Shown here one piece after another: positions 19,059-57,718 of a stretch of DNA of 57,718 nucleotides (positions within the stretch are counted from its first letter, which is position 1; every line of letters starts with the position of its first letter). Origin of the DNA: Paludibacteraceae bacterium (GTDB lineage Bacteria > Bacteroidota > Bacteroidia > Bacteroidales > Paludibacteraceae); NCBI GenBank assembly GCA_017649925.1, contig JAGCFX010000034.1, positions 1-57,718 of the forward strand, read 5' to 3'. The translations under genes were made by a program, and so were the position numbers. The notes under the pieces were generated by a model. The model searched no databases and was not told the DNA's origin. It saw only the letters and a program-made list of their open reading frames with translations.

Positions 19059-21323
19059 TTATTTAATCAGTTTTCCCTGGGCATCATAGATATGATTTCC
19101 GCGGAGAATGAGGAGTTGACCGTCAAGAAGAATCTTGGAAGCCTCACCCCGACCCTCCCCTGAAGGGAAGGGAGTGTTGTCGATGGCGGTGGCAGTGCCG
19201 GTGGTGGTGAAGTCGGCTGCGTAAGAGGCAATCTCTTGATTTCCGGAATCCTTAGCCAGGAGCGTCAGGTGGTAGTTAGTGCCACTATCCAGACCTGTTA
19301 CCGTGAAACGCAAGCCGCCATTGGAAGTCTTGACCGCTGCGGGGGCATGACGATTGCCGCTCTTGCCAGGTGCAGCAAAAGCAATACCGGTCAACTGACC
19401 ATTCGCATTGAAGATAAGCGTACAGAAGACTACTCCATCTTTGGAAATCTCCAAAGTATATGTATTGGCATCTTCAGATGTAGGCCAAGTAATGGTAGCC
19501 GTATTATCGGCAGGTGTTATGCTGACTTCGGTAACCGGCTGCGTGATTGCTTCTGCTTCTTTAACTTGTACATCAAACTCACCCCAATATGTATCTCGCT
19601 GGTAAGCGCGTTGGCGGCCTTCCGGCACATAGAGATAGATATATTGCTTGTTGCCGATATTGGCAAAAGTGGTTGCATTTATTGTAGGAACGTCGCCGGC
19701 ATAACAAGTGATATCGTCAAAGTTCTTGCACTCGGCAAAAGCATAATCGCCAATAGTCAACACGCTACTGCCAATGGTCAAATGATTGATGGAGTTCATG
19801 CCATAGAAAGCACTATCACCAATGGAAGTCACTTCATTGCCGATTATCAAGTTCCGCATTTGAGTCGAAGCCTCAATGCCAAACGTATAATTCTCCGTCA
19901 AAGCGCCATTTGCACTAATGGTTAGAGTCTTCGATTGGTCTTCATATTCCCATTTTAATACATTATTTTCACCACATGTTCCGCTTTTGTCTATCGCAAA
20001 AATGGCGGTAAAGGTAGTATCTTGTGTTAGTATCACTGTTCGCGGGTTCTCTTTGTTTCCATCCGACCATTGTGCGAAATGATAACCATAATCAGGCTGA
20101 GCTGTCAGCGTATAAGTATTACTACATGCAATTCCAGAATCTAATCTTTGTATTGAGCCATTTTCTCCACTTGTGATTAGAGTATAATTGTTAACGTCAG
20201 CATAGATGATATCTGCATTGTCGGCTAGCATCGTTTGAAAACGCTCCTTTTCTCCGCAAGGGACATGTATTGCTGTTAGATTGGAGCAACCTAAGAAAGC
20301 ATTATTTCCAATGCTTGTGACGCTATTGGGAATCGTCACAGAGGTTAAACCGGTGCAACCATAGAAAGCATAATCTCCAATGCTTGTGACGCTATTGCCA
20401 ATCGTCACTGAGGTCAAACCGCTGCAACCAGAGAAAGCCCGATATCCAATGCTTGTGACGCTGTTGGGAATAACCAAATCTGTTACTAATTCACCATTTA
20501 AATATAAGTTCTGTGCATAAGATAATGGATTGGCAGAATAATCACCAAAACTGATTGCACACCATGCAGCAATGTCGGATATATGCACCGCGCTCAGACC
20601 TGTGCATTTATCAAAAGCACCCCCTCCAATGCTTGTGACACTGCTAGGAATAGTTATAGATGTTAACCCACTACAATCATAGAAAGCACGTGGTGCTATA
20701 GATTCTATGCTATCTGGAATAGTATATGCACCCGACCAAGACCCAGGCAGGTAAGCAAATACATTAATATTATATATAGGTGAGGTCAAACCAGTGCAAC
20801 CATAGAAAGCTTCGCTACCAATACTTGTAACACTATTGGGAATTTCAATAGAGGTCAAACTAGTGCAACTTTTGAAAGCGCTATATCCAATGCTTGTGAC
20901 GCTATTCGGGATTTCGACAGAGGTCAACTTGGTGCAATTACAAAAGGTATAATTTCCAATGCTTGTGACACTGTTGGGGATAGTCACAGATGTCAACTTA
21001 GTGCAATAGTAAAAAGCATAACTACCAATGCTTGTGACACTATTAGGAATTGTTACCGATGTCAAACCTGCGCAATTGTTGAAAGCACTTGTTCCAATGC
21101 TTGTGACACTATAGGTGTTTGCATTGTATTCGACAGAAGTGGGAATATTAGCAGAAGTAATGCTTGTTGTCCAACGTGGGGAACTGCTATTTTGCGATGT
21201 TACTTCTGCAGTTTTTTTCTCGTCATCGAGGTTGTAATACAGATTGCCGATTTTGGTCGAAGCAAAAATTGTTCCCGTGCCTGCGATAAGTGTAAAGAAG
21301 AAAATGAAGATTTTTGTTTTCAT
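19059..21323 (-). CDS. BspA-like leucine-rich repeat surface protein (copy 1)
   Basis: 754 aa. Signal peptide of about 21 residues (MKTKIFIFFF to IFAS). From about residue 70 to 370 there are roughly ten LRR_5/BspA repeats of about 23 residues with consensus LTSVTIPNSVTSIGxxAFxxC. Next comes a YTLTAQPDYGYHFAQWSDG module (InlB B-repeat-like), a second short LRR block, and a fibronectin-type domain (VTEVSITPADNTATITWP). The final ~45 residues (GQLLILRGNHIYDAQGKLIK) look like a type IX secretion sorting end. BspA proteins bind host or microbial surfaces. It is last in a three-gene unit behind the structured RNA. Confidence 0.88.
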   Translation of the reverse strand: MKTKIFIFFFTLIAGTGTIFASTKIGNLYYNLDDEKKTAEVTSQNSSSPRWTTSITSANIPTSVEYNANTYSVTSIGTSAFNNCAGLTSVTIPNSVTSIGSYAFYYCTKLTSVTIPNSVTSIGNYTFCNCTKLTSVEIPNSVTSIGYSAFKSCTSLTSIEIPNSVTSIGSEAFYGCTGLTSPIYNINVFAYLPGSWSGAYTIPDSIESIAPRAFYDCSGLTSITIPSSVTSIGGGAFDKCTGLSAVHISDIAAWCAISFGDYSANPLSYAQNLYLNGELVTDLVIPNSVTSIGYRAFSGCSGLTSVTIGNSVTSIGDYAFYGCTGLTSVTIPNSVTSIGNNAFLGCSNLTAIHVPCGEKERFQTMLADNADIIYADVNNYTLITSGENGSIQRLDSGIACSNTYTLTAQPDYGYHFAQWSDGNKENPRTVILTQDTTFTAIFAIDKSGTCGENNVLKWEYEDQSKTLTISANGALTENYTFGIEASTQMRNLIIGNEVTSIGDSAFYGMNSINHLTIGSSVLTIGDYAFAECKNFDDITCYAGDVPTINATTFANIGNKQYIYLYVPEGRQRAYQRDTYWGEFDVQVKEAEAITQPVTEVSITPADNTATITWPTSEDANTYTLEISKDGVVFCTLIFNANGQLTGIAFAAPGKSGNRHAPAAVKTSNGGLRFTVTGLDSGTNYHLTLLAKDSGNQEIASYAADFTTTGTATAIDNTPFPSGEGRGEASKILLDGQLLILRGNHIYDAQGKLIK
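19143..19175. repeat. GC-rich palindromic insert inside the BspA-like gene
   Basis: CCCTCCC-CTGAA-GGGAAGGG is an imperfect inverted repeat in otherwise AT-richer coding sequence. It is read in frame as TPFPSGEGRGEA just before the C-terminal sorting segment. The encoded peptide is typical of a widespread mobile palindrome rather than of the protein family. Confidence 0.6.
20270..21130 (-). repeat. Tandem ~69-bp LRR coding repeats
   Basis: Repeated units of about 69 bp encode the 23-residue BspA motif. The most constant DNA part on the plus strand is CCAATGCTTGTGAC. Some spacing is irregular, with an interruption near 20480-20780. Such tracts are prone to recombination and unit gain or loss. 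Confidence 0.85.
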
Positions 21324-21701: not shown

Positions 21702-22007
21702 TTAATTAAAGGTATAACCGCAATCGTCATTTGTACAAACATATTTATGCTCAAACTCATTCCATCTGGCATCATTACCGCAATGAGGACATTCCTTATC
21801 AGTATGCGGATTTGTTTCCTCATCCTCAATTAGAGCATCTCCGTGATTTAATTCAAAGCCAGGGCAGTCATCCGAAGGACGAATCTTGTTAAATAAATCG
21901 AATTGATTCATGCCACATCTAGTGTCTAAATTATGCTCGCAGCAAAAACACTTTGTGACATCATCTGGGTCCCCAAAAAGGCGATCTAACTTTTCACTTT
22001 CCGTCAT
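21702..22007 (-). CDS. Small cysteine-rich zinc-ribbon protein, 101 aa
   Basis: No named family. 101 aa with nine cysteines. The C-terminal ribbon C73-x2-C76 ... C91-x4-C96 (KECPHCGNDARW ... YVCTNDDCGYTF) is a credible zinc site. The N-terminal half has a second Cys cluster (C20, C22, C23, C31, C48) and an acidic overall charge. It is the first gene after the structured RNA element and reads toward the BspA gene. No TAnnTTTG promoter is visible between the RNA's terminator and its ATG, so read-through from the RNA is likely. Confidence 0.72.
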   Translation of the reverse strand: MTESEKLDRLFGDPDDVTKCFCCEHNLDTRCGMNQFDLFNKIRPSDDCPGFELNHGDALIEDEETNPHTDKECPHCGNDARWNEFEHKYVCTNDDCGYTFN

Positions 22008-22079
22008 ATGATAAAAGTATTAATTGCCTACTCTTTATTGGATTTTCGGCACACTCCATTTAAATAATTGAATGCACAT

Positions 22080-22355
22080 AAAAAGCGTGGGCTTTACGCT
22101 CGCTTCATTTGATTTTCTGAGGTTCTGGACTACCTTAACAATTCAAACTTACGCACGGAAAACTCACGCTAGTACGTGAGCGTGCATAAACCGCGCTTGA
22201 ATTGTTAATTTTCTAAAAGTGTCCAGTTTTCAGAAAATCAAGTTAGGCTTATTACGCTATCTTTTGGCACTCGCTTGCACCGATGTACTCACTTTTTTAC
22301 ACTGTTGAGCCCAGTGACCGTTTTTTTTACGCTTCGGTGTCAGCAAAAACCTTTG
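22080..22355 (-). ncRNA. Structured RNA element, copy 1 (candidate new RNA or leader)
   Basis: Core 22080-22320 (241 nt), read on the minus strand, with a promoter at 22362-22393 and expected start near 22355. Order in sense: hairpin CACTG/CAGTG; hairpin GGTGC/GTGCC; a long nested arm of P1 (12 bp, 22230-22241 with 22109-22120), P2 CTGGAC/GTCCAG, P3 (12 bp, 22197-22208 with 22135-22146), P4 (9 bp) and an apical hairpin CTCACG/CGTGAG; then AGCGT-AAAGCCC-ACGCT with a T run, a terminator. A second copy at 55446-55686 keeps every helix while its sequence differs at several paired positions. No open frame explains it. Function unknown. Confidence 0.8.
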
Positions 22356-22361
22356 CGGGTG

Positions 22362-22393
22362 CAAAGTTACAGCTTTTTTTTTAGATACGCAAG
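22362..22393 (-). promoter_or_regulatory. Promoter of structured RNA copy 1, with palindromic start region
   Basis: Minus strand CTTG (22393-22390), 20-nt spacer containing nine A and GCTG, TAACTTTG (22369-22362), then CACCCGCAAAGG. TTTGC-ACCC-GCAAA overlaps the -7 box and start site and is shared with the Bro-N promoter. Confidence 0.8.
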
Positions 22394-54515: not shown

Positions 54516-54537
54516 CACCCGCAAAGGTTTGACAACT

Positions 54538-55416
54538 ATGTCACACGAACTGAAGATACAGAAATTTGATGACAAACAAGTACGCATTGTTTGGGATGAC
54601 GAGGAGCAGAAATACTACTTCTCCGTTACGGATGTTGTCGGAGTGTTAACCGACCAACCCGATGCGCGCGGCGCAAGTACCTATTGGGCCGTACTCAAGA
54701 AACGCCTGAAAGAAGAAGGCGCAAATGAGTTGATTACAAATTGTAAGCAACTGAAATTACCTGCAGCAGACGGGAAGAAATACGCTACGGATGTGGCTGA
54801 TACAGAGCAACTTCTGCGTATTATACAGTCTATTCCATCTAAGAAAGCAGAACCGTTAAAACAATGGTTGGCGCAAGTAGGTAGCGCGCGTTTGGACCAA
54901 TTGCAAGATCCGGAGCTGTCTATACAACAAGCCATTAATGACTACCGCCGTTTGGGTTATGGAGAGAATTGGATTAACCAGCGTGTGAAGTCCATCGAAA
55001 CCCGTAAGGAATTAACGGATGAGTGGAAGCGCGGAGGCATGCAAGAAGGACGCGATTTTGCGCTTTTGACGGATATTATTACCAAGGCATGGAGCGGCAA
55101 GACAACCGGAGAGTATAAGAAATTCAAAGGCTTAAAGAAAGAGAACCTTCGCGACAATATGACCAATTTGGAGTTAGCGCTTAATACCTTAGCGGAAGCT
55201 GCTACCACAGAGTTCTCGAAGCAATATAACCCGAAGGGCGTTGAGGCGAATAAAAAAGTGGCAAGAAAAGGCGGAGATGCCGCACGCGCAGCGCGTGAGA
55301 ATATAGAAAAAGGTCTTGGACGCAGTATTATGTCGCCCAACAAAGCATCTGATTACATTAAACCGATAGAAGAAGCCAAAAGTCAGGAATTGCCTTTTGA
55401 CAACGAGGATAAATAA
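54538..55416 (+). CDS. Bro-N domain protein, DinD/antirepressor-like
   Basis: 292 aa from ATG 54538; a TTG at 54529 is less likely. Residues about 1-110 fit the Bro-N/phage antirepressor domain (IRIVWDD-type start VRIVWDDEEQKYYFSVTDVVGVLT, then WAVLKKRLKEEG). The middle and C-terminus (LLTDIITKAWSGKTTGEYKKFKGLKKENLRDNMTNLELALNTL) resemble DNA-damage-inducible protein D. Such proteins are DNA-linked regulators often on phages or accessory islands. The sense strand continues 30 nt later into structured RNA copy 2 with no clear separate promoter. Confidence 0.82.
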   Translation: MSHELKIQKFDDKQVRIVWDDEEQKYYFSVTDVVGVLTDQPDARGASTYWAVLKKRLKEEGANELITNCKQLKLPAADGKKYATDVADTEQLLRIIQSIPSKKAEPLKQWLAQVGSARLDQLQDPELSIQQAINDYRRLGYGENWINQRVKSIETRKELTDEWKRGGMQEGRDFALLTDIITKAWSGKTTGEYKKFKGLKKENLRDNMTNLELALNTLAEAATTEFSKQYNPKGVEANKKVARKGGDAARAARENIEKGLGRSIMSPNKASDYIKPIEEAKSQELPFDNEDK

Positions 55417-55445: not shown

Positions 55446-55686
55446 CGGTCACTGGGCTCAACAGTGTAAAAAAGTGAGTACATAGGCGCAAGTGAGCGCC
55501 AAAAGATAGCGTAATAAGCCAAACTTGATTGTTTGAAAACTGGACACTTTCAACAATTTATTCTTCAAGTTACGGTTTATGCACGATCACGTATATGCGT
55601 GAGTTTTCCGTGCGTAAATTTGAAGAATAAAGGTAGTCCAGAACCTCAAACAATCAAATGAAGCGAGCGTAAAGCCCACGCTTTTT
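55446..55686 (+). ncRNA. Structured RNA element, copy 2 (candidate new RNA or leader)
   Basis: 241 nt, same length and order as copy 1. Helices: CACTG/CAGTG; GGCGC/GCGCC; P1 12 bp (55525-55536 with 55646-55657); P2 CTGGAC/GTCCAG; P3 12 bp (55557-55568 with 55620-55631); P4 TTATGCACG/CGTGCGTAA; apical TCACG/CGTGA; final AGCGT-AAAGCCC-ACGCT plus T run. Against copy 1, P1 has two and P3 four base pairs replaced on both strands; the second hairpin shows U-G to C-G and G-U to G-C changes. Loops and joining regions are mostly identical. It lies between the Bro-N gene and a 70-aa ORF. Confidence 0.8.
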
Positions 55687-55747: not shown

Positions 55748-55960
55748 ATGGAGGTAAATAAAAATCAAATAATTATGGACACAGAATTATTAAAGGGAAT
55801 TTTGCGAGAGTTGCAAACGACAAACATCATGTTGCAAAGGTTTTTAACAAATGCAAATGAGTCTACAGAAGATGCAGTACATAAGTATATCGCATCTATA
55901 GATAATAATGTAGATTCAATTGCTCACGACCTGAATATATTAAAGAATAAAAAATCCTAA
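55748..55960 (+). CDS. Small helical protein, 70 aa (unknown)
   Basis: Not recognised. 70 aa from ATG 55748 (MEVNKNQIIMDTELL) or 61 aa from ATG 55775. It is wholly soluble and predicted helical/coiled coil (LLKGILRELQTTNIMLQRFL ... IDNNVDSIAHDLNILKNK). It lies 45 nt before the BspA-like gene and 61 nt after the RNA terminator, the same place as the zinc-ribbon gene in the first locus, but without sequence likeness to it. Confidence 0.6.
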   Translation: MEVNKNQIIMDTELLKGILRELQTTNIMLQRFLTNANESTEDAVHKYIASIDNNVDSIAHDLNILKNKKS

Positions 55961-56005: not shown

Positions 56006-57718
56006 ATGAAAACAAAAATTTTTACTTTACTATTTGCCGTAATGACAGGTATAGGAAGTATGTCTGCCATGACTATAATTGGAACAGGAGGCTCCTGCGG
56101 CGAAAATCTAAAATGGTATTATACGAAAACCGATGGTGTGCTCACTATTTCTGGAGCAGGTAACATGGATGATTATACTACATCATCCAACGACGGCGCT
56201 GCTCCTTGGCATTATTATAAAAAAGATATTAAAACCCTGATAATTGGCGATAGCGTCACAAGCATTGGAAAATATGCTTTTTTAGGTTGCAGTAGTTTAA
56301 CATCTGTGCCTATTCCCAATAGCATCACAAGTTTTGGACAAGGATCGTTCTCTTATTGCACAAGTTTGGCTTCTATCACTATTCCAAGCAAAGTCACAAC
56401 TATTGGGGGAGATGCTTTCGAAAATTGCACAAGTTTGAGCTCAGTAACGATTAATTCAGATGTCATAATGAGCAAAAGTTTCGCGGTTGGCGGTAATATG
56501 GATAAAATATTTGGAAAGCAAGTTACAGAATATATAATAGGAGATAGCGTAAAAAGCATTGGAGAATACGCATTTTATTATTGCGAGAAATTGACCTCTG
56601 TAACTATTGGCAATAGTGTTACAAGTATTGGAGAGGATGCATTCGGACATTGTACAGGTCTGACCGCCATTGAAATTCCAAACAGCGTTACAAGTATTGG
56701 AGATTATGCTTTCGAAGATTGCCCAAGGTTAACTTCTGTCGTTATCCCTAATAATGTCACAAATATTGGAGAGGCTGCATTCGCATATTGTACAAGTCTG
56801 ACTGCTATTAACGTAGCAGCAAATAATCTAAATTATTGTTCGGTAGATGGAGTGTTGTTTAATAAAGGAAAAACGGAGCTGATACAATGTCCTGCTCGTA
56901 AAACTGGTGACTACGTCATTCCTGCAGGTGTTACTATTATTGGAAATGCAGCTTTTGATTATTGTACAGATTTAACCTCTATTACTATTCCCAATAGCGT
57001 CACAAGCATTGGAGATTATGCTTTCAAAAGGTGCGAAGGTTTGACTTCTATTTTATGTTTAGCAACAATGCCACCTCAGCTGGGTGGTGAGGACGCGTTG
57101 TTAGATATTATTGTAAATCCAGCTTCTCTTTATGTTCCAATAGGAAGCATCCCTTTATATAAGTCTGCGGATTATTGGAAGTTGTTTAAAAATATTCTAC
57201 CTATTCCTGGCGCAGAAGCGATAACAACATCTGGAGCATCTGCCACTCCATCAGATGAAAACAGTGTGATTATCGAATGGCCGGCCATTGATAATGCTAC
57301 TGCGTATTTTATAAATATTAAGAAAAATAGCGAAATGGTTTACGAACTTGAATTCGATGGAGATGGACGTTTACAATCTAATGGCTCGTATATGCCTTCC
57401 CGTAACGGAGGTAATCGCCATATTTCTGCTGCGATGCAGACAACTAATGGGTGGAAATATACCATCAATGGTTTAGAGTCTGGTGTTACCTATACCTATG
57501 TAGTAACGGCAAAGAAATCCGATGCTTCTGTGCTTTATACAAAGACTATCACGTTCTCTATCGGTGGATCCGTTACCCCAGAGTCTAATGCTATTACGGT
57601 GCGTCTTGACCCGACCAGCGCAACTCAGTGGAACAAAGTTTATCTTTATGCTTGGATTGGATCCGGAGACGATGCGACAATATTATGTGGCTATTGGCCG
57701 GGCACGCAAGTTAGCAAA
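56006..57718 (+). CDS. BspA-like LRR surface protein (copy 2), truncated by window end
   Basis: Open from ATG 56006 to the window edge (571 codons, no stop). Signal peptide MKTKIFTLLFAVMTGIGSMSA, nearly the same as copy 1. A GGSCGENLKWYYTKTDGVLTISG module follows, then about eight BspA repeats (LTSVTIPNSVTSIGDYAF) between residues ~75 and 350, a fibronectin-type domain around 415-520, and a C-terminal stretch VYLYAWIGSGDDATILCGYWPGT that resembles a starch-binding CBM26-type module. Surface binding role inferred. The C-terminal sorting segment, if any, lies outside the window. Confidence 0.85.
   Translation, partial: MKTKIFTLLFAVMTGIGSMSAMTIIGTGGSCGENLKWYYTKTDGVLTISGAGNMDDYTTSSNDGAAPWHYYKKDIKTLIIGDSVTSIGKYAFLGCSSLTSVPIPNSITSFGQGSFSYCTSLASITIPSKVTTIGGDAFENCTSLSSVTINSDVIMSKSFAVGGNMDKIFGKQVTEYIIGDSVKSIGEYAFYYCEKLTSVTIGNSVTSIGEDAFGHCTGLTAIEIPNSVTSIGDYAFEDCPRLTSVVIPNNVTNIGEAAFAYCTSLTAINVAANNLNYCSVDGVLFNKGKTELIQCPARKTGDYVIPAGVTIIGNAAFDYCTDLTSITIPNSVTSIGDYAFKRCEGLTSILCLATMPPQLGGEDALLDIIVNPASLYVPIGSIPLYKSADYWKLFKNILPIPGAEAITTSGASATPSDENSVIIEWPAIDNATAYFINIKKNSEMVYELEFDGDGRLQSNGSYMPSRNGGNRHISAAMQTTNGWKYTINGLESGVTYTYVVTAKKSDASVLYTKTITFSIGGSVTPESNAITVRLDPTSATQWNKVYLYAWIGSGDDATILCGYWPGTQVSK
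56240..57050 (+). repeat. LRR coding repeats in BspA-like copy 2
   Basis: Units of about 69 bp encoding 23 residues, with AGCGTCACAAGCATTGGA-like DNA as the most constant part, diverged more than in copy 1. Interrupted near 56460-56530 and 56810-56930 by non-repeat segments. Confidence 0.75.

Follow-up and report, generated by a model that had tools for sequence, protein, structure and literature searches.

A large family of folded leader RNAs in gut and other Bacteroidia, represented by two copies ahead of BspA-type surface protein genes

The window, a 57,718-nt stretch of DNA from a Paludibacteraceae bacterium (contig JAGCFX010000034.1) that was analysed as a whole, carries two copies of a 241-nt element that are members of a large, old family of folded leader RNAs in gut and other Bacteroidia, where they stand ahead of many genes, chiefly ones for secreted and surface proteins. 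The element is very probably a cis-acting leader. Our preferred reading, to which we assign a probability of about one half, is that it is a translation-responsive cis-acting 5' leader switch that gates the gene or operon just downstream. We infer the switch itself mainly from relatives outside the genus; helix-score tests gave no signal for the helices P0 and P6 in the genus set, and both window copies lack the additional parts, the mini-ORF among them. An earlier note on this DNA had described a structured RNA of two copies, and its reading looks to need extension, from a free-standing RNA of 240–280 nt to a cis-acting 5' leader that is multicopy and occurs across the class.

The copies lie where the earlier note had placed them, at 22080–22320 on the minus strand and 55446–55686 on the plus strand, and pairwise alignment agrees with it that they are alike in length, order and loops. 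They share 88% identity by blastn, and each beats all 200 of its dinucleotide shuffles when folded (z = −5.41 for copy 1 and −6.55 for copy 2). The helices called P1 and P3 in that note correspond to P2 and P4 here. In P2 a T-A pair becomes G-C and a C-G pair becomes T-A from copy 1 to copy 2, exactly as had been claimed, while P4 is indeed altered on both sides in four pairs (alignment, by eye) and a small hairpin passes from GGUGC/GUGCC, with two G-U pairs, to GGCGC/GCGCC. The suggestion that the element is non-coding agrees with the stop codons found in all six frames of both copies. Only the count of two did not stand: the genome itself holds at least 12 copies, with blastn finding 12 places (six spanning most of the element and six mainly its 5' module) and a covariance model giving 12 matches, a lower bound obtained from 15 scored candidates. 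The features of the window copies and their neighbours are listed below, with the basis of each in brackets.

22081..22258, minus: copy 1 core (P1–P5), 3' end ACGCUUUU (R1 covariance match; alignment A2)
22288..22316, minus: copy 1 upstream H-type pseudoknot module, CACTG-GGCTCAA-CAGTG-TAAAAAAG-TGAG (sequence)
22266..22281, minus: copy 1 small hairpin, GGTGC-AAGCGA-GTGCC (sequence)
22083..22101, minus: copy 1 terminator-like hairpin, rival of P1 for ACGCT (pattern scan; genus alignment)
22362..22369, minus: copy 1 promoter-like TAACTTTG (sequence only)
22025..22059, minus: DUF805b RNA (RF02914), between the copy 1 core and the first gene (Rfam, above gathering)
21702..22007, minus: first ORF downstream of copy 1, 101 aa (ORF; no Pfam or NCBIfam match)
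19059..21323, minus: surface protein downstream of copy 1, BspA-type LRR, 754 aa (Pfam LRR_5, E 2.9e-90)
54529..55416, plus: gene upstream of copy 2, Bro-N domain, weakly DinD-like (Pfam Bro-N over cut-off; NCBIfam DinD far below cut-off)
55450..55478, plus: copy 2 upstream H-type pseudoknot module (sequence)
55485..55500, plus: copy 2 small hairpin, GGCGC-AAGTGA-GCGCC (sequence)
55508..55685, plus: copy 2 core (P1–P5) (R1 covariance match; alignment A2)
55665..55683, plus: copy 2 terminator-like hairpin, rival of P1 (pattern scan)
55775..55960, plus: first ORF downstream of copy 2, 61 aa (sequence)
56006..57718, plus: surface protein downstream of copy 2, BspA-type LRR, running past the window end (Pfam LRR_5, E 4.1e-69)

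Both copies head operons in which short ORFs come next, followed by a BspA-type LRR protein. The Bro-N gene ends 33 nt before the pseudoknot module of copy 2. The sequence TAACTTTG before copy 1 resembles a Bacteroidetes −7 type promoter.

The core of about 180 nt consists of P1 (AGCGU/ACGCU), P2, P3, P4 and P5, and compensatory changes preserve it throughout the class. The genus set started from 128 places, which gave 106 full unique cores and 104 sequences at less than 95% identity. Using our own R-scape-like script, rather than R-scape itself, with a null in which the observed substitutions were redistributed along the tree in 60 simulations, 11 column pairs among these 104 sequences reached E<0.05. 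Every one of the 11 falls within P2, P3 or P4 or borders on one of them. Ten are paired in 90% of sequences or more, and the remaining one in 61%, its alternating states being C-G and A-A. A2 is a plain MAFFT alignment of 98 of the 104 sequences, excluding three that are truncated or odd (L073, L032, L053) and three left out without a test (L035, L058, L113). Under a 50-pair structure 97.3% of its cells pair and 23 of the 50 pairs are altered on both sides, with 478 double-change cells against 134.7 in shuffles. The alignment A4, from outside the genus, is also plain MAFFT, while A3 and A5 are structure-fitted. Covariation beyond phylogeny is thus seen both against the tree-based null and in the unfitted A2 and A4, in line with the selected RNA secondary structure that had been proposed. 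In A2, G-U cells outnumber A-C cells by 265 to 40, and by 104 to 39 where the majority of the pair is Watson–Crick, an excess that favours RNA of this strand over DNA.

The same structure extends to more distant relatives. In a fitted alignment of 47 elements from outside the genus 94.4% of cells pair and 36 of the 50 pairs are double-changed; the corresponding values for 11 class-wide loci (fitted; two within the order and nine beyond) are 96.5% and 33 of 50. A5, the class-wide alignment, has 13 rows, two of which are reverse-strand shadows of L214 and L217, and with the shadows included the values are 95.5% and 35 of 50. P1 is nearly invariant in the genus, while its first pair in A5 is A-U in seven and U-A in six of the 13 rows (U-A in six of 11 when the shadows are removed). 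By eye, A-rich and U-rich strands flanking P1 can lengthen it in the class-wide loci. Six loci within our collection have the 5' module followed by a divergent long-hairpin body: L007, L076 and L080 give weak matches to the core model (E 2e-8 to 9e-5), and L011, L074 and L084 give none at E 0.01. These bodies are possibly further subfamilies.

The extent of the family depends on the method of search. By blastn the element matches 28 of 61 genomes, our own included, and all belong to a single genus. We rejected a genus-restricted family as an effect of blastn sensitivity, as covariance models match in the family, order and class. Two models were used, R1 built from 98 genus sequences and R2 from 47 relatives outside the genus. 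R1 detected the core in 164 of the 178 genus genomes sampled, in 72 of 150 genomes of the family (25 of 33 genera; 11 of the 72 genomes are from the genus itself), in 49 of 247 genomes of the order and, at phylum level, in two of 247, one of them our own. R2 found it in 87 of 247 order genomes (67 of 173 genera) and in 59 of 295 class genomes (35 of 156 genera). Each of these samples, from genus to phylum, includes our own genome, and all copy numbers are lower bounds with 9–17 candidates scored per genome. The element is nearly palindromic, and strand-mixed nhmmer counts were not used. A pattern scan found 55 loci in metagenome-assembled genomes of Paludibacteraceae, Bacteroidales or Bacteroidia, many of them from ruminants. 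Searches of phages, plasmids and viral contigs with exact patterns and blastn were negative, and on the strength of these searches a phage or plasmid origin was dropped.

The position of the element relative to genes points to action in cis. Among 109 genus elements, 96 share their strand with the downstream gene and four do not, while nine have no gene in reach; among the 47 elements outside the genus these numbers are 44, two and one, and all 10 class-wide loci with a gene in reach have it on the same strand, one having no gene. Pooling all sets, a close same-strand downstream gene is present in 150 of the 156 cases that have a gene in reach. A sense-strand position close upstream of a gene, as a cis-regulatory 5' leader should have, is therefore found in all three sets. 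In the genus elements the ATG lies a median of 47 nt beyond the core end. A simple hydrophobicity rule assigns a signal-peptide-like start to 74 of the 96 genus genes, compared to 141 of 408 other ORFs at the same loci, and to 32 of the 44 downstream genes outside the genus. We compared with Pfam 20 of the 94 distinct downstream proteins, hand-picked from a random 30: seven are LRR (BspA-type) and one each SusD, OmpA and HSDR_N, while the others are various or have no match. In this sample of 20 the products are heterogeneous, with no common pathway that would tie them to one ligand. Other known RNAs were seen nearby at a few loci. A tRNA gene, by eye tRNA-Ala(GGC), stands immediately before the leader in L021 (834–907, Rfam) and L068, and a SAM-II long-loop riboswitch (RF01726) lies at 721–778 on the minus strand of L009, about 0.7 kb from the leader module.

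The earlier note did not recognise the element as tmRNA, 6S, SRP RNA, RNase P RNA or a known riboswitch, and a scan of the window copies and of relatives, including distant ones, agrees with this, with no Rfam 15 family reaching its gathering threshold on the element. When E values up to 10 are admitted, copy 1 is overlapped by two matches only, both at the level of chance (E 5.6 and 8.9) and well short of gathering. Neither outcome that the note had named as refuting, a strong Rfam hit or a lack of significant covariation in a large alignment, was obtained. DUF805b RNA (RF02914), the one genuine Rfam hit near the window copies, is a neighbour in the same leaders, in the interval between core and start codon, at 22025–22059 in the window and in loci L002 and L015, with weaker matches below gathering in L161 and L167. 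Unlike the element it is a separate motif of 35 nt, does not match the 241-nt sequence and gives no match in most loci scanned; it may be a second module of these leaders. A 2017 study reportedly described 224 RNAs. The literature that we searched, outside which that study lies, holds no earlier description of the element, and absence from the study itself cannot be claimed. Structured leader RNAs are a known kind, and judged against Rfam 15 and the literature searched the element forms a new class among them. PMC2864571 describes Bacteroidales-1, Bacteroid-trp and other Bacteroidetes motifs as conserved structured RNAs, several of them cis-regulatory. Those motifs that carry Rfam numbers there do not match the element, while Bacteroides-2 and GUCCY-hairpin have no Rfam number in its table and lie outside the comparison. 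PMC9723704 reports 5' elements without Rfam hits before other, housekeeping-type genes in Flavobacterium, which are likewise outside the comparison.

The evidence for a translation-responsive leader comes from additional parts in relatives outside the genus. The 47 elements used here were hand-picked from match lists rather than drawn at random. Other genera of the family contributed 23 of them and other families of the order another 23, and one came from beyond the order. Since related elements are not independent, small p-values overstate the evidence. P0, P6, the mini-ORF and H0 are properties of this set and not of every copy. P6 joins the bases just 5' of CACGCUUUU to a stretch about 19–44 nt beyond the core and in most cases ahead of the start codon. 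Its mean helix score over the 47 elements is 7.76. Exchanging downstream regions between elements lowers this to 5.98 ± 0.21, with 6.57 as the highest of 200 shuffles; the top-scoring helix of some elements is in another place and probably reflects chance. As the 5' strand of P6 lies inside P1 and its 3' strand outside, P6 is a pseudoknot. P0 is a domain-closing helix that joins about −30 to +3, with a mean score of 8.80 against 6.70 ± 0.21 and none of 500 shuffles as high, although a strong P0 is present in only 22 of the 47. In A4, 95.6% of P0 cells pair with seven of nine pairs double-changed, and 84.2% of P6 cells pair with three of five double-changed; these counts are biased, A4 being 20 of the 47 elements chosen by hand, mostly with mini-ORF and P0, while the 47-element tests are not.

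The mini-ORF has the form TTGCCTATG-NNN-(NNN)-stop, with one or two codons, and lies about 50 nt upstream of the core. An ATG in this context (CCT, CTT or GCT before it), 30–90 nt upstream, is present in 29 of the 47 elements, leaving 18 that do not have one. Of these 29, 25 stop after 1–2 codons, compared to 8.3% of 4037 other ATGs. All three stop codons (TAA, TAG and TGA) are used and the second codons are varied. By eye, L174–L176, L178, L184 and L191 have GGAGG-type Shine–Dalgarno-like runs about where the missing mini-ORF would stand, and such runs are unusual in the Bacteroidetes phylum. The region upstream of the core scores 6.47 for hairpins against 5.79 ± 0.17 in its own shuffles. H0 is a small hairpin found 11–13 nt past the mini-ORF AUG in 17 of 20 elements, a different hairpin scoring best in the other three. 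The 3' arm of H0 overlaps the 5' strand of P0 in 16 of the 22 elements outside the genus in which P0 is strong. Taken as bare helices, P0 is the more stable of the two in all nine hand-picked examples, yet H0 is transcribed about 200 nt earlier. Among the 11 class-wide loci P0 and P6 are for the most part weak, and one locus has the context ATG, in the form AUG-stop.

Put together, these parts suggest the following sequence of events. During transcription H0 would be the earliest to fold. With a ribosome occupying the mini-ORF, the 5' arm of H0 would be covered, the P0 strand would stay free, and P0 could form once its partner strand had been made. In this way ribosome occupancy at the 5' end of the leader may set the fold of the domain and, via P6 and P0 near the start region, the expression of the gene. 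Both the translation of the mini-ORF and the toggling of mutually exclusive helices by a ribosome are candidate features deduced from sequence. A parallel exists in ribosome-mediated leader attenuators of the trp and erm/cat type, where a short leader ORF comes first and mutually exclusive helices lie between it and the regulated gene, an arrangement that the putative mini-ORF and the candidate pair H0 and P0 resemble. The element differs from them in having an ORF of only 1–2 varied codons, a conserved core of about 180 nt, a long-range pseudoknot and unrelated downstream genes, and in window copies that have no such ORF.

Within the window's genus the arrangement is not the same. Of 107 genus leaders 49 contain an H-type pseudoknot module, in many cases with a linker rich in A, compared to 10 ± 2.3 in 10 shuffles. 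These modules stand upstream of the core, are small, and have stems that vary between leaders; the same 5' module is also seen before genes without a detectable core (L009–L012). CCTATG occurs in 26 of the 107 leaders, in 17 of these with one codon ahead of a stop, and further leaders closely follow the stop codon of the upstream gene. A P6-like match is retained in at least one divergent genus member, L075. At the 3' end of the core both window copies have a local GC hairpin and a U-run, which by eye are not kept outside the genus. This hairpin, AGCGT-AAAGCCC-ACGCT, competes with P1 and is terminator-like. Pseudoknot modules or the stop codon of an upstream gene may mostly replace the P0, P6 and mini-ORF parts here, the choice being between P1 and the local hairpin, and with these replacements the switch would act on transcription read-through. 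The terminator-like hairpins of the window copies fit plain transcription termination equally well.

Several other explanations can account for some of these observations. Processive antitermination leaders such as put, EAR and JUMPstart/ops mark the beginning of surface and exopolysaccharide operons, and together with a NusG paralogue they provide the model for an RNA that acts on RNA polymerase so that transcription of surface and defence operons that are long or newly acquired continues past terminators or Rho. The element too stands at the start of surface operons and heads unrelated genes, which points away from a single metabolite ligand, and a block of 2,298 bp that is 97.9% identical between two species shows the element moving together with two genes. 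We nevertheless consider antitermination unlikely, as the pairing of P6 before the start codon and the mini-ORF before many cores suggest translation. The element also differs from the antitermination families in having no Rfam match to any of them, and is not known to have a partner protein. A little more doubtful again is the idea that the core recognises a ligand or protein shared by many genes, as a riboswitch or protein-binding leader would. The strong conservation in A2 and A4 of the internal loops by P3 (GAAA/ACC) and of the CUCACG hairpin is what such binding would predict, while the heterogeneity of the 20 sampled downstream genes speaks against it.

If the element were instead the gene of a trans-acting sRNA that ends at the terminator-like U-run, its neighbours would be incidental. 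The promoter-like sequence before copy 1 and the terminator-like hairpins at the core end of both copies suit this idea, which we consider improbable given how regularly a close gene follows on the same strand. In addition, six of the 11 class-wide loci end in ACGCA and then a U-rich stretch that by eye can pair with the A-rich 5' side, so that the U-run looks like part of a closing helix. For the fixed gene context and this pairing a free-standing sRNA with a terminator was dropped as first choice. Slightly more improbable still is a DNA element, either a folded single-strand recombination site of the integron attC kind or a MITE that moves gene cassettes. Like retron msr-msd and integron attC, which are long imperfect hairpins present in several copies, the element is a long imperfect hairpin and multicopy; the borders of shared blocks fall at it (L009/L010, L052/L054), and several upstream genes are by eye toxin–antitoxin- or defence-like. 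Unlike them it has a genic position, with a fixed orientation to the downstream gene, and pairing of RNA type that favours G-U over A-C and covaries across the class. Reverse transcriptase PF00078 has no match in our genome, which is 96% complete, and a retron, group II intron or DGR was rejected for this reason. The genome has three tyrosine recombinases, and by eye no attC-type core site is conserved.

Returning to the translation-responsive leader, a wider and more tentative proposal is that throughout the class the fold of a leader domain of about 230 nt is set by the mere start or end of translation on a 1–2-codon ORF. Such an RNA system might serve as a general sensor of ribosome state with control over a large part of the variable surface and defence proteins of Bacteroidia, a portable module copied from gene to gene. 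With an RNA of this size, conservation and frequency in a main class of gut bacteria missing from Rfam 15, the map of bacterial gene control would have a notable gap. Shine–Dalgarno sequences are rarely used by Bacteroidetes, and the combination of a tiny leader ORF, mutually exclusive helices and a pseudoknot at the start region would make the way in which mRNAs are chosen for translation in this phylum testable. It also gives a handle on a possible group switching of BspA-type LRR and other secreted proteins.

Movement of leaders with their genes is seen at several loci. In our genome L009 and L010, both without the core, have the leader module and gene in common and differ in the upstream sequence, and the 2,298-bp block described above starts at the 5' edge of the element. 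At the right borders of L098 and L099 a transferred block with a restriction-type gene ends in what appears to be a remnant of the C-terminal tail of a secreted protein (..QIYILRGEKVYT..), as if leader and tail had acted as the two arms of an exchange.
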